64,000 bases of DNA from Bacteroidia bacterium (lineage in GTDB: Bacteria; Bacteroidota; Bacteroidia; UKL13-3), in NCBI GenBank assembly GCA_023151275.1, contig JAKLJI010000001.1, positions 582,409-646,408 on the forward strand, in the 5' to 3' direction. The position numbers were made by a program, and so were the translations under genes. Below the pieces are notes generated by a model, which was not told the DNA's origin, did no database searches, and saw only the letters and a program-made list of their open reading frames with translations. Numbering within the stretch: the first letter of the stretch is position 1; each line of letters begins with the position of its first letter. This document shows, piece after piece, positions 10,153-16,762 of the stretch.

Positions 10153-10315
10153 ATTCTGGAGCAAACTAGGCCAGTGATTCTGGGGTAAATTAGGCCACTC
10201 ATTCCGGAGCAAACTAGGCCAGCCATTTTGGAGCAAACTAGGCCACCATTTACGTGTTTTAACCTTCAGGTTTTGTATCCAACAAGATGTCATTCTGACA
10301 CAAATTAGGCCACTT
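10153..10315. repeat. 24-bp tandem repeats, possible IS21-type terminal array
   Basis: Four contiguous 24-bp units begin at 10153, 10177, 10201 and 10225. Each reads ATTCTGGAGCAAACTAGGCC plus four variable bases, with small changes. A fifth unit (ATTCTGACACAAATTAGGCC) lies at 10292 after a 43-base gap. Clustered subterminal repeats with a GGCC core are known at the ends of IS21-family elements in Bacteroidota. No istA or istB gene is nearby, so this would be a solo end or relic. Iterons or regulator sites are alternatives. There are no unique spacers, so it is not a CRISPR array. Confidence 0.55.
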
Positions 10316-10797: not shown

Positions 10798-11514
10798 ATG
10801 AAAAGAGTCATAATCTTATTTGGCATTCTCCTCGGGTTTAGCAAAGTATGGGCACAAGAAATGTACACCCAAAGCTACTCGGATAAAAATGGATTGCCCG
10901 ATAATGAGGTGTTTGATATCCATCAAGATAAACGAGGATACTTATGGATAGCAGGAAATAGTGGATTGGTCCGATTTTCGGGAAATGAATTTAAGTCATT
11001 TACAAGTCCCGGCCAGCGCATGCCTGCATTGGCAGACATGCAAGCTATGGCAGATGGCTCACTATGGATGCATGATTTTGGCGATCGGATATTTGTATTA
11101 AACCATGACAGCTTAAAATACTTTCCTATTCCTGAACAAGTTGGTGGTGGCTTTCCAACCCTGGCATCCGACCCAAGTGGAACTTACCTATGGATTGCCT
11201 GGAACTCTAAAATTCTGCTCTATCAAACTTCAAAACCAAGCTTAATCAAGCAATTTCCAATTAAAACCAATCGAAGTATTTATGCCGATAAAGCGGGTTT
11301 ATGGGTATCCTCTGAATCTGCATTTGTGCACATCAATAAGCAGGGAGAACAACATGTTTTTCCATTGAAAAATGTACGTGATGTTCAAAGGAAATTAACC
11401 GATAAAGTGTTTTTCATGGAAAGGAATGGCCATGTTTATGCCTACCTCCGCAGCAGCAAAGAATTGCTGGTTTTGCAATCAGGCCAATTCATTCCCACCA
11501 ACTTTGGTTCCTGA
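10798..11514 (+). CDS. propeller-type sensor kinase, N-terminal part (frameshifted)
   Basis: Signal peptide (LLGFSKVWAQ), then two-component-regulator propeller repeats. YTQSYSDKNGLPDNEVFDIH and the following DKRGYLWIAGNSGLVRF are the hallmark of the ligand-sensing beta-propeller of Bacteroidota sensors. The frame stops at 11512-11514 inside a propeller blade. The next frame is open from before that stop and continues the same fold (RNGCYSFSADFKYYTQLFKG), so a single missing base between about 11495 and 11515 separates the two halves. No slippery heptamer is apparent. The gene is therefore either inactivated or affected by a sequence error. With the downstream part it would encode one sensor of about 945 residues. 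Confidence 0.85.
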   Translation: MKRVIILFGILLGFSKVWAQEMYTQSYSDKNGLPDNEVFDIHQDKRGYLWIAGNSGLVRFSGNEFKSFTSPGQRMPALADMQAMADGSLWMHDFGDRIFVLNHDSLKYFPIPEQVGGGFPTLASDPSGTYLWIAWNSKILLYQTSKPSLIKQFPIKTNRSIYADKAGLWVSSESAFVHINKQGEQHVFPLKNVRDVQRKLTDKVFFMERNGHVYAYLRSSKELLVLQSGQFIPTNFGS

Positions 11515-11564
11515 CCCGCAATGGTTGTTATTCATTTTCTGCGGATTTTAAGTATTACACCCAA

Positions 11565-13646
11565 TTGTTTAAAGGCGTTGCAGTATCGGATATGTTGATG
11601 GACGACGAGCATTCTTTGTGGATTGCCAGTTTGGACCAAGGCTTGTTGCAAGTACCCAATCAGAACATCACTGTTTTTCCGATAGCCGGAACGGGTTCCA
11701 AAGGTATTTGCAAATTGGGATTTTGGGAAAATCAATTGGTAGGTGGAAGCCTGGAGGGTTCGTTACTCACCTGGAAACAAGGAAATTCTACTGTTCTTAT
11801 TCCTTCTCAAGAAAAAAAAGAAGTTAGCTTTCTGCAAACCGAGAATGGAAAACTATGGTTTGGCACCAATAATCTGATGCGTTACGATGGAAAAAAACTT
11901 GAAACATTATCGCCCAATCCCGGTACTAAGCAATTATTTCCATTGAATGCAAATTACCTTTTGGCAGCTGGTTCTGACGGGCTCTCGCTTGTTTCAACAG
12001 CCAAGGGACATGAATTACCGGATTGGCTAAAACCTTATGCGAAAGAAATAAATACGAAAAAGACCTATTTCGCCAGGTTTCATAACCTACGCAGTTGGTC
12101 GGTTTGGGCCAACGATAGCCTGCAAACCCTCTTTTGTGCCGGCAAAAATGGCCTGATACGGTATAAAAAAGGGAAAGAAGAGCTGATGCAATTTGAAGGA
12201 GAGCCGGTATATGCCAGCTCGCTCGATGGCAATAGGAAGCAAGTAATCATAGGAACACATAACCAAGGGGTATTGATGTATTCGTTGGGCAATGAGGAAT
12301 TAAACCAGGTTAAAGCCTTAAGCACCTTGTTTGAAAACAGTTCGGTTTATTTGGTAAAATGGCAAGACCCCTATTGGATTTTGGTAGGAGCTAAATCGGT
12401 AGTTGTTTGGAATCCGCAAACCCAACAACAAACAGAACTTAGTAGAGAATCGGGATTGCTAAGTGGAAGGGTTTATGATGCCCTAATAAAGGATAAACAC
12501 CTGCTACTTGCCGGCTCATCGGGTTTGTTTTCGTACCCCATTGCCTCGTTAAAAGACAATTATGGCAAAGCCCGCTTTCAGGTAAAAAGTATCAATGGAG
12601 TTGCTTATGAACCCGGAAAAGCAATTGAAATTGGTTTGAACAGACAGCTTAATTTAGTGGTAGATAAAATAGGATTTAGACAAAGGGACCAGATCAGTTT
12701 ACAATACCGCCTGAACGAGGGTGCTTTAATTACCTTACATCCATCCGAACAAAGTTTAAGCATTAATTCCCTGCCCTATGGTGAATCAATACTTTATTTA
12801 AGGGCAATAAATAAGCTCAATCAAAAAACAGCCGAAGAAATCAGAATCGCTTTGATTGTAGCTACTCCAATTTACCTTCAGGTTTGGTTCCTTAGCTGTT
12901 CTTTAATCCTTAGTCTTGGCTTTGGAATATTTATGTGGCAATTCAGGTTAAATCAACTCAAAAAGAAGAATGCCGAGCTACTGGAAAAGGAACAATTGAA
13001 CCATGCATTAAAGTCGAGTATGTTGGCCAGTATTAAGTCGCAAATGAATCCGCACTTCTTGTTTAATGCATTGAATACCATCCAGAGTTTCATTTTGCAA
13101 AACGACCGCATGAATGCCAATTTCTATTTGGGAAAATTCAGTGATTTAATGCGCAAAATCTTGGGTATGTCAACCCGGGATACCATTCAACTGGAGGAGG
13201 AACTGGAAGCACTGAAACTATACTTAGAGTTGGAGAATATGCGCTTTAACGGAAGCCTAATTTACGAGATTGACCTTCCAAACGAGGAGATACTGGAACT
13301 GGAAATACCCTCCATGATTATCCAACCCTATGTAGAAAATGCCATTAAACATGGCTTACTTCATAGTCAGAAAGAGCGGCGACTTCAAATCAGGTTTAGC
13401 CTAGAAAAAGAAAATGTATTGAAGGTTGAAGTGGAAGACAATGGCATAGGCAGGCAGGCGGCAGAACAAATAAAATCGAGGCTATTCAAGGGAAGTTTTC
13501 AATCCTTTTCTACCGAAGCCAACAAGCGGAGATTGGAACTTTTGAATGAGCAACTTGCTACCCATATTGGAGTGGAGTATATTGACAAAGCCGAGCATCA
13601 ACAAGCCCAAGGTACGCTTGTAAGATTATTTATTCCTTTTTCATAA
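11565..13646 (+). CDS. propeller-type LytS-like sensor histidine kinase, C-terminal part (frameshifted)
   Basis: Continuation of the gene begun at 10798, in another frame. The coordinate is a TTG; coherent homology starts earlier, near 11511. The order is: remaining propeller blades (DEHSLWIASLDQGLL, ENGKLWFGTNNLMRYDG), a Y_Y_Y-type beta-sandwich (~355-425), one transmembrane helix (IYLQVWFLSCSLILSLGFGI), a coiled coil, and a LytS/YehU-type His_kinase domain with NPHFLFNALNTIQSFI (phospho-accepting His). The ATPase shows YVENAIKHGL and VEDNGIGRQAA. Kinases of this class pair with LytTR regulators, and one is encoded at 16004 past the surface-protein gene. A bidirectional terminator follows. 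Confidence 0.88.
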   Translation: MFKGVAVSDMLMDDEHSLWIASLDQGLLQVPNQNITVFPIAGTGSKGICKLGFWENQLVGGSLEGSLLTWKQGNSTVLIPSQEKKEVSFLQTENGKLWFGTNNLMRYDGKKLETLSPNPGTKQLFPLNANYLLAAGSDGLSLVSTAKGHELPDWLKPYAKEINTKKTYFARFHNLRSWSVWANDSLQTLFCAGKNGLIRYKKGKEELMQFEGEPVYASSLDGNRKQVIIGTHNQGVLMYSLGNEELNQVKALSTLFENSSVYLVKWQDPYWILVGAKSVVVWNPQTQQQTELSRESGLLSGRVYDALIKDKHLLLAGSSGLFSYPIASLKDNYGKARFQVKSINGVAYEPGKAIEIGLNRQLNLVVDKIGFRQRDQISLQYRLNEGALITLHPSEQSLSINSLPYGESILYLRAINKLNQKTAEEIRIALIVATPIYLQVWFLSCSLILSLGFGIFMWQFRLNQLKKKNAELLEKEQLNHALKSSMLASIKSQMNPHFLFNALNTIQSFILQNDRMNANFYLGKFSDLMRKILGMSTRDTIQLEEELEALKLYLELENMRFNGSLIYEIDLPNEEILELEIPSMIIQPYVENAIKHGLLHSQKERRLQIRFSLEKENVLKVEVEDNGIGRQAAEQIKSRLFKGSFQSFSTEANKRRLELLNEQLATHIGVEYIDKAEHQQAQGTLVRLFIPFS

Positions 13647-13707: not shown

Positions 13708-15840
13708 TTAGTTTCGTACTACTTTACAGATCCGGGTCCTCCCCTGCTTATCCTTTACATGAAGCAAGTAAATTCCTTGTTCCATGGAAGCAATATCCAA
13801 CTCCGATTGCTCAGTGCTAAGCATGAATTGGCCCGATAAAGAATACAGTTCTAAACGTTGAACAGCCACACCTTCAACCTGAATAGTTCCTTGTGAAGGA
13901 TTAGGGTAAACCTGTAAATTATAGGCCAACTCCTCCTCCATTCCGGTGCTTCCAACGGCAAGGTAATAACAAAGGGAGGTATCTTGAGAACAACCATTGT
14001 TTATTACCACCGCATAATTACCCGGCCTTGTAGCTAGAAAAGTCTTTTTGTTTGCGCCAGGGATAGCCTGTTTGGTATCGCAATCAATCCACTGAAAGTA
14101 CACCAAATCATGCATGGCATTCAAGGCAAAGTCGCTCACCTTAACCAAGTCTCTGCGAATTGCAGGAACCGGTTTACCAAACATTTTGTTGATATCACAT
14201 TCGCCAAGTGCACGATCATACATGTACAAATCATCAAAATCTCCGGTAAAACTCAGGCCTTTTGAAGGAGAGTCCATATTCTTATTCAGGTAAGCACCCA
14301 GGTAGGTATAATCACAAGGACCAACATGGATAGCATTTTGTAAAAAACAAACCTGCTCACCATCCACAAAACCTCTGGCAGTGTTGGCAGCTCTATCCAA
14401 TACAAAGCCTAGATTTACCCAGGTGTTTAAAGGAATAGAATCGGCCGGGTCAGCATCTGCAAACAGCACATTGCCGTTTCGTTGAACAACACCGATGCGC
14501 AGCACATTGTTGATAATCCGAATGTAAAAAGAACCCTTTGGAGTACCATTGGTAGCGCTAAAATCACTTACTACAAAAGCATCTGAAATAAAGGAAGTAC
14601 GCTTAACCCAAATGAAGGCAGAAATATCCGGCGTATCGTTTTGCTCGGTGTTTAAATTGGTAGCTGAATACAAACCCGATAAAGTACTATTAAAGGCACC
14701 TAATGGTCTTCCATCTCTACCTGTTGAATAAACAGCAGAAGGATTGTTTGCTATACTGGTAACCTTTTCAAAGTCGGCCATTTGCGGAGATATGCTCGCT
14801 AAATTGGTATTGAAGTCATAGCTTCCTCTGTTGTTGAATCGGGTAACATCGGAGTTATGGGCCAAGGCACATGTAGAAGTATCGTATCCACAACCTGTGC
14901 CTACAACAACCTTGTAATAGCCTCTGTTAACAGCGGAGAACAAGCGCTGTGTTGCACCACTTACAGGTTGGTTGGTTTCACAATTCAACCATTGATAAGA
15001 TGCTGCGTTACTAACGCTTGCAGTTAAATCTTTTTGAAAGGCATATACTTCAACACCTTGGCTTGAAGCTGCTTTGTTGGCCAATTGCTGCACCTCACAA
15101 GAGGTTAAAGAGCGGTTGTAGAAAGCTAAGTCATCCAAGGTTCCATCAAACAATTCAGAAGTTTGGGTAGATGGATTTGGCCCACCTAAGAACATCAGCA
15201 ATGTTCTACCCAGGTTAACAGGAGCAAATGGTGTGGTTGGAGCGCTTACCGACTTGCTGCTGCCATTAACCATTTTTCCATTCAGGTAAAACCGCATGGA
15301 AGCCGAAGGTCTGTCGTAAACTGCAGCCAAATGATTCCAAACACCAACGCTAACCGAATCCACAAAATCATCAATTAACGTTGCTGTATTTTGATTGTAC
15401 AGGATAAACTGAGGGTGACCATTGTACATAGCAAGGCGAAATCTTCCTTCCCCAAAAGAAGGACCTTGGAAGAAGTTAATCACCTTGTAATCGCCTAAGA
15501 TGGTTTTGGTATCCAGTTGTTTGCTATTCATTTTCACCCAGACAGAAACCGAAAAGCTACCTGAGGAATCTCCCGGATTAAACGGTTGAGCGGTGAAATG
15601 GCCTGAAAGAAAGCTGTAAAAGGAACCATTCGCCACATTGGTTCTTCTGTCATTGGCCCACATTTTTACATCGTTATTAACCGGAGGGTTGTTGTAAGGA
15701 GTAAAGTGACTTGCAGCCGATGTTGAATCTTGCATGGTTTGATTGAAGGTGTAGAAACTCCGTAAACCAGTTAAGGGGATTTGCGCATTGAGCCCAAAGA
15801 ACCCAATAAGCAGGCTAAGGGAAAGTAGGTGTTTTTTCAT
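13708..15840 (-). CDS. secreted LamG-domain surface protein with T9SS tail
   Basis: A 710-residue protein with signal peptide (LLIGFFGLNAQ) and two laminin-G/concanavalin-like domains at ~25-265 and ~330-560. Each ends in a conserved LDDLAFYNRSL- or FDDLYMYDRAL-type motif. Each is followed by a short immunoglobulin-like piece with the Cys pattern SYQWLNCETNQPVSGA or YFQWIDCDTKQAIPGA. The C-terminal ~75 residues (YNLQVYPNPSQGTIQVEG ... GIYLLHVKDKQGRTRICKVV) form a type A T9SS sorting domain, so the protein is exported through the outer membrane and displayed or released. It may bind glycans or mediate adhesion. It lies between a LytS-like kinase and a LytTR regulator, and its upstream region carries paired regulator-like repeats. 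Confidence 0.88.
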   Translation of the reverse strand: MKKHLLSLSLLIGFFGLNAQIPLTGLRSFYTFNQTMQDSTSAASHFTPYNNPPVNNDVKMWANDRRTNVANGSFYSFLSGHFTAQPFNPGDSSGSFSVSVWVKMNSKQLDTKTILGDYKVINFFQGPSFGEGRFRLAMYNGHPQFILYNQNTATLIDDFVDSVSVGVWNHLAAVYDRPSASMRFYLNGKMVNGSSKSVSAPTTPFAPVNLGRTLLMFLGGPNPSTQTSELFDGTLDDLAFYNRSLTSCEVQQLANKAASSQGVEVYAFQKDLTASVSNAASYQWLNCETNQPVSGATQRLFSAVNRGYYKVVVGTGCGYDTSTCALAHNSDVTRFNNRGSYDFNTNLASISPQMADFEKVTSIANNPSAVYSTGRDGRPLGAFNSTLSGLYSATNLNTEQNDTPDISAFIWVKRTSFISDAFVVSDFSATNGTPKGSFYIRIINNVLRIGVVQRNGNVLFADADPADSIPLNTWVNLGFVLDRAANTARGFVDGEQVCFLQNAIHVGPCDYTYLGAYLNKNMDSPSKGLSFTGDFDDLYMYDRALGECDINKMFGKPVPAIRRDLVKVSDFALNAMHDLVYFQWIDCDTKQAIPGANKKTFLATRPGNYAVVINNGCSQDTSLCYYLAVGSTGMEEELAYNLQVYPNPSQGTIQVEGVAVQRLELYSLSGQFMLSTEQSELDIASMEQGIYLLHVKDKQGRTRICKVVRN

Positions 15841-15896
15841 TTTTTATTGAATTGCTGCAACAAAAATTGAACGCTTGAATTTAGCTGACAAATGCG

Positions 15897-15960
15897 TTTC
15901 ATAAAGCAATGCACTTGTTTCACAAAAAGCCTTATGAAACGAAATACTCTCTTTATGAAA
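15897..15960. promoter_or_regulatory. two divergent pairs of 21-bp-spaced repeats (LytTR-type operators)
   Basis: TTATGAAA occurs on the plus strand at 15932 and 15953, 21 bases apart. Its complement occurs at 15897 (TTTCATAA) and 15918 (TTTCACAA, one change), also 21 bases apart. The wider consensus is CTTTATGAAAC. LytTR domains are known to bind two ~9-bp direct repeats whose starts are about 21-22 bases apart. One pair points towards each flanking gene: the LamG protein to the left and the LytTR regulator to the right. Binding is inferred. Confidence 0.6.
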
Positions 15961-15988
15961 GGAAGAAAACTCTGTTGAAACCAAGTTC

Positions 15989-15996
15989 TATATTTG
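15989..15996 (+). promoter_or_regulatory. -7 promoter element of the LytTR regulator
   Basis: TATATTTG matches the Bacteroidota TAnnTTTG element exactly and ends 7 bases before the regulator ATG, so the transcript would be nearly leaderless. No TTTG -33 element is found at the usual spacing, which suits a promoter that needs an activator at the repeats just upstream. Confidence 0.5.
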
Positions 15997-16003
15997 CCAG
16001 CTC

Positions 16004-16762
16004 ATGGGTAAGCGTATTCAGGTAATTATTACAGACGATGAGGCAGGCGCCAGACAGGTTTTGCGGACCCTGCTCACAGATTTTTTTCCTGAATTGGAAT
16101 TGGTAGCAGAATGCGAAGATTTACCGACATGTGTGAAAGCCATCCGTAAATTCAAACCAGATTTGGTTTTTATGGACATTGAGATGCCCTCCTACAGTGG
16201 CTTGGAAGTCCATCAGTTTCTAGACCCGGAAGACATTCATTTCGAATTGATATTCACAACAGCCTATCATGAATATGCCGTTGAAGCCTTCCGTCTTGCT
16301 GCTATTGATTACCTGTTAAAACCCATTCAATTTAACCAATTGGCCGAAGCCATTGAGCGTTATAAGCAAGAACAACACAAGCAAACCGCCTTGGAACAAT
16401 TGCAGGTTTTCAGGCAAAATCTATCCGAGCCCTCGGATAGAAAACTGTGTATATCAACCAGTGAAGGGAAGCACTATGTGGCCCTGGCTGATATTTTAGC
16501 ACTAGAAGCCGATGGTTCTTATACCCGTATTTACACCCGCAATCAAGGTTCTATTTTTGCCGGGCGAAGGTTAAAGGTGTTTGAAGACATGTTAAAATCA
16601 GACCAGCGATTTCTACGCATTCACCGGTCGAGTGTTGTTAATGCCTCCTGCATTGCTCGTTTGGTAAAAGGAGATGAAGCCCATGTAGTTTTAGAAAATC
16701 AACAGCGCTTTCCGGTTTCATTGGACAAGCTGAAAGAGCTAGAACAGCGCATGTCATCCTAA
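16004..16762 (+). CDS. LytTR-family response regulator
   Basis: A 252-residue cytoplasmic regulator. The receiver (residues 1-125) has acidic pocket TDDE, phospho-acceptor D58 (LVFMDIEMPSYSG), the conserved Thr in FTTAYHEYAVEAF and Lys in DYLLKPIQF. The LytTR DNA-binding domain (~145-248) has ILALEADGSYTRIYT and FLRIHRSSVVNASCI. It most likely accepts phosphate from the LytS-like kinase at 10798-13646 and controls the LamG surface-protein gene and its own promoter. The start is 7 bases behind a -7 element. The last four bases overlap the convergent WbqC-like gene. Confidence 0.93.
   Translation: MGKRIQVIITDDEAGARQVLRTLLTDFFPELELVAECEDLPTCVKAIRKFKPDLVFMDIEMPSYSGLEVHQFLDPEDIHFELIFTTAYHEYAVEAFRLAAIDYLLKPIQFNQLAEAIERYKQEQHKQTALEQLQVFRQNLSEPSDRKLCISTSEGKHYVALADILALEADGSYTRIYTRNQGSIFAGRRLKVFEDMLKSDQRFLRIHRSSVVNASCIARLVKGDEAHVVLENQQRFPVSLDKLKELEQRMSS

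Follow-up and report, generated by a model that had tools for sequence, protein, structure and literature searches.

Mirrored 21-bp repeat pairs between a LytTR response-regulator gene and a divergent LamG/T9SS gene in a Bacteroidia bacterium form a candidate bidirectional operator

Background

The window, a 64,000-nucleotide stretch of contig JAKLJI010000001.1 from a Bacteroidia bacterium (GCA_023151275.1), contains a LytTR response-regulator gene and a secreted LamG/T9SS protein gene that diverge from a 163-bp intergenic region. An earlier note had described two mirror-image repeat pairs in this region, and the locus raises the question of whether they could serve the regulator as an operator for both genes. 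Judged from the DNA and its homologues, the intergenic region is probably an autoregulated bidirectional LytTR operator that activates the LamG/T9SS gene and the regulator gene. A bidirectional operator resembling agr P2/P3, and dedicated to one surface-type protein, is the best explanation of the observations below.

Genes at the locus

The response regulator (252 aa, Response_reg and LytTR domains) is encoded at 16004..16762 on the plus strand. Its LytTR domain was identified as PF04397 with a score of 62.6 bits, so that the repeats adjoin a LytTR gene; among the matches listed, five PDB alignments were all to receiver domains. The secreted protein (710 aa, two Laminin_G_3 stretches and a Por_Secre_tail domain) is encoded at 13708..15840 on the minus strand and lies between the regulator gene and a propeller histidine kinase gene, the candidate operator being directly 5' of the regulator. 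The kinase gene (10798..13646, plus strand; Reg_prop, His_kinase and HATPase_c) is divided between open reading frames 10798-11514, which carries Reg_prop, and 11565-13646, which carries His_kinase and HATPase_c, with a change of frame between them. Homologues match the kinase in different frames before and after approximately 11403-11514, and the gene is therefore broken in the present assembly; the break may be genuine or may come from misassembly. Repeated GGAGCAAACTAGGCCA units are found 5' of the kinase at 10158-10245, and five exact copies occur in the genome, three at this position and two on contig C21. We take these units to be reminiscent of IS21-type element ends.

Repeats between the divergent genes

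The repeats were all recovered where the earlier note had placed them, with TTTCATAA at 15897, TTTCACAA at 15918 and TTATGAAA at 15932 and 15953, and the 21-bp spacing is exact within both mirrored pairs. The half-sites are of a TTTRTGAAA-like type, and the two mirrored pairs separate the LamG/T9SS gene from the regulator gene. On the minus strand, the LamG-proximal half-site TTTATGAAA (15897..15905) is 28 bp from the LamG -7-like box and the LamG-distal half-site TTTGTGAAA (15918..15926) is 21 bp from the proximal copy. On the plus strand, the regulator-distal half-site CTTATGAAA occupies 15931..15939, and the regulator-proximal half-site, again TTTATGAAA, occupies 15952..15960, 28 bp from the regulator -7 box. 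A weak third copy, CTGTTGAAA, follows at a distance of 20 bp (15972..15980, plus strand), and its significance is uncertain.

Published LytTR sites consist of repeats of 9-11 bp separated by 11-13 bp and share no common consensus (PMC4847170). Both pairs fall within these limits, being 9-mers with 12-bp spacers, and the suggestion that the spacing is of LytTR type agrees with the sites described in two papers (PMC4847170, PMC6193735). When the 163-bp region was shuffled 3000 times with dinucleotides preserved, 3 shuffles produced mirrored double pairs at any spacing from 10 to 40, and none did so at spacing 21.

Promoter geometry

The -7 consensus given for flavobacteria is TAnnTTTG (PMC9723704). 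The regulator -7 box TATATTTG (15989..15996, plus strand) matches it exactly, and the LamG -7-like box AATTTTTG (15861..15868, minus strand) matches it with one mismatch, so that both fit a Bacteroidota sigma-A promoter. The regulator -7 box was said to lack a -33 partner, and no TTTG is present at the -33 spacing; the LamG promoter, unlike the regulator promoter, has a -33-like TTTG (15889..15892, minus strand), 20 bp from its -7-like box. The proximal half-site is separated from the box by 28 bp in both directions, a feature beyond those listed in the earlier note, and the geometry is 28/49 at both promoters. Each promoter of this single intergenic region thus has a repeat pair of its own, as in agr, positioned 5' of the core promoter at a distance that is kept in homologues.

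In the proposed circuit, the regulator encoded at 16004 would bind as a phosphorylated dimer to each pair of half-sites, which are two helical turns apart, and would sit just 5' of RNA polymerase at each promoter. The regulator would then activate the secreted LamG/T9SS gene together with its own gene, a positive autoregulation, and the propeller kinase at 10.8-13.6 kb would be the source of the signal. We infer binding by this regulator, its phosphorylation by the kinase, and activation as opposed to repression. That the bound regulator instead represses one promoter, for example that of LamG, where the -33 element is beside the proximal half-site, appears unlikely: the LamG TTTG is at hand 20 bp from the -7-like box, and the LytTR protein CoxC is a repressor acting on three direct repeats that overlie -35 (PMC11347149), but the two promoters here share the 28/49 geometry, the half-sites are upstream of the -33 position and not over it, and the LamG -7-like box departs from consensus.

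Occurrence in the genome

The pattern TTRTGAAA-N13-TTRTGAAA was found at 49 places in the 3.9-Mb genome when up to two mismatches (<=2) were allowed. Two copies are exact, and both are in the LamG-regulator intergenic region; the pattern was built from these sites, so their exactness is unsurprising, and the informative part is the absence of further exact sites. Among the 30 of 49 places that were looked at, one of them (L168) out of register, the four one-mismatch places are all within reading frames, and the two exact sites are the only ones that precede a gene and stand 28 bp from a box. A looser geometry pattern gave a single match, on the LamG side.

The same scan found no exact copy of the operator pattern at the kinase (10.8-13.6 kb), so that the link to the kinase rests on synteny in homologues and on domain type. 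The kinase, LamG protein and regulator had been joined in one circuit; synteny and domain type speak for this grouping, and the kinase part of it is weakened by the missing exact operator and the broken frame. The genome encodes 14 LytTR domains, and no clear pair was seen by eye at a paralogue in the same genome (L194).

Homologous loci

Of 64 genomes of the family, 18 gave a match at E <=1e-50, the genome itself included, and the three congeners gave none at this threshold. A search for closer orthologues at the level of the order yielded 64 genomes and no member of any other family. In a set of 80 loci, gene context was mapped for L059-L071 and the upstream scan covered L059-L083, L084-L138 being unused; L183 (contig end), L218 (no regulator match >100 bits) and L281 (no regulator match) were left out. 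Near-identical rows (L186/L189/L192, L195/L196, L199/L200 and four from Pedobacter) were counted, and the counts ignore kinship.

In the mapped homologous loci the propeller kinase is usually followed by the regulator, and many of them have a large gene in divergent orientation to the kinase. Laminin_G_3 was present in 9 of the 10 divergent proteins scanned, the exception (L193) being incomplete, and Por_Secre_tail in three of the ten, several others running off the fetched stretch. The search for the paired motif at homologous loci, which had been proposed as a check, returned the same half-site, spacing and -7 distance at both promoters. This arrangement favours the view that the pairs are candidate LytTR-type operators facing both divergent genes.

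The half-site of the LamG-regulator region was scored, both ways round, at each position relative to the -7 box. Nine homologous loci (L184-L189, L193, L197 and L198), selected partly after a motif scan, gave score peaks on both sides at distances of 28/29, 49/50 and 70/71 bp from that box, and the gaps of 28, 49 and 70 (18 promoter sides) each had p ~5e-5 against random offsets. When all 26 regions from the family whose gap was 90 bp or more were taken (45 sides), 28 and 49 were still the top peaks, and on the 27 sides outside the nine loci 49 was highest and 28 second. Eight of the nine loci form one supported clade with L192 in the regulator tree, L198 stands beside it, and the present regulator is outside with L183. 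Because it groups with L183 alone, the nearest relative found, whose contig ends 68 bp upstream, the conservation of the sites is seen outside the close relatives, among which the search turned up none that keeps its upstream region intact. The mirrored layout is kept in related bacteria, which indicates that the regulator very probably switches on itself and its neighbour.

The half-site TTTRTGAAA points towards each gene here versus mostly TTTCAYAAA in the nine loci. Polarity, which is not a defining feature in the sources consulted, is thus flipped relative to most homologous sites, and since the site is quasi-palindromic this may or may not matter. Another regulator, such as a different LytTR protein of this genome, is improbable as the one that binds the pairs: 14 LytTR domains to choose from, a quasi-palindromic half-site and a polarity unlike that of the homologues would suit it, but no exact copy of the site exists in the genome outside this intergenic region, where it adjoins a LytTR gene, and similar pairs are found at the kinase-regulator operon in homologues. 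AT-rich repeats with no regulatory role are very improbable, for although the half-site is AT-rich and near palindromic and short-period arrays create 21-bp repeats in some loci, the shuffles, the rarity in the genome and the -7 distance conserved in homologues argue against chance.

Comparison with known LytTR systems

The agr P2 and P3 transcripts diverge, and AgrA drives its own operon, a likeness to the bidirectional, autoregulated operator proposed here. Staphylococcus aureus agr P2-P3 also has a LytTR response regulator (AgrA) and direct repeats 5' of each of its two promoters, which share an intergenic region; its promoters are of the -35/-10 type with long spacers, whereas those here have Bacteroidota -7 boxes and the partner gene is LamG/T9SS (PMC4227749). 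The autoregulatory repeats of HdrR and other LRS systems are of 9 bp with mostly 12-bp spacers, their sequence varying while the spacing is kept; in the S. mutans systems they are 4-11 bp upstream of -35 with positive autoregulation, and LRS-like operons of Bacteroides have 11-bp repeats, an 11-bp spacer and TATCTTTG boxes (PMC6193735). LRS regulators are paired with a membrane inhibitor (PMC6193735), whereas the regulator here has a Response_reg receiver domain and its partner is a histidine kinase, which places it outside the LRS type.

Escherichia coli YpdB, a LytTR response regulator, acts at PyhjX on a direct repeat, GGCATTTCAT, that shares TTTCAT with the half-site, and differs in phylum, target and promoter type (PMC4847170). 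RcoM and CoxC place LytTR domains on three repeats about two turns apart, comparable to the 28/49/70 of the homologues, but are CO-responsive and not a kinase-regulator pair, and CoxC is a repressor (PMC11347149). The titles and abstract openings returned by a literature search held no description of LytTR operators with fixed geometry and changing half-sites.

Generality of the 21-bp geometry

Several clade members have visibly different half-sites (e.g., L216, L195/L196, L059 and L191), and alignment of the LytTR domains yielded no tested link between contact residues and half-site. Spacing was examined with a pair test on 9-mers with at most one mismatch (<=1), from which short-period arrays were removed since 7-bp tandem arrays (L217, L225, L253) inflated the raw count of 21-bp pairs. 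Of the 56 discovery promoters, 17 had a pair at spacing 21, where the other spacings averaged 2.9; such a pair occurred in 6/43 held-out promoters against 1.5, the held-out set being 60 further regions, one of them without a regulator match. Control intergenic regions, which are not signal-free, had it in 20/187 against 9.3; the excess at 21 bp in controls perhaps comes from co-regulated neighbours.

When a test that assumes no motif was anchored on the -7 box and the nine-row clade removed, the peak was at spacing 21, with a gap of 25 for the 52 regulator-side promoters and of 29 for the 36 on the divergent side; spacings 20 and 22 gave no peak. The signal is carried by the discovery part (7/26 and 4/18, against 0.22 and 0.00) and is weak in the more distant held-out regulators (2/26 and 2/18, against 0.28 and 0.11); controls gave 6/87 against 0.83.

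We offer tentatively, and with somewhat more doubt than belief, the proposal that Bacteroidota may hold many self-contained modules of propeller kinase, LytTR regulator and LamG surface protein, each with its own operator sequence but all with the same fixed layout (pairs spaced 21 bp and placed ~28 bp from -7 at each of the divergent promoters), paralogous modules being insulated so that each would control only itself and its surface protein. If the geometry is fixed while the half-site changes, the operators, and hence the targets, of LytTR regulators without known targets would be predictable from sequence alone, and secreted surface-type proteins would have a testable control circuit.

At L216, two mirrored pairs built on another half-site, CAGTTGGCA, lie 5' of the regulator, each with the 21-bp spacing. 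Within 16.5 kb, L211 has two LytTR regulators along with several proteins whose match to the LamG protein is to its C-terminal part, and GAAACG or GAAACC pairs also occur there 5' of neighbouring genes. At L267, a ACTTGGTGAA-type 21-bp pair is present 5' of the gene preceding the regulator and of a neighbour, possibly a small regulon.
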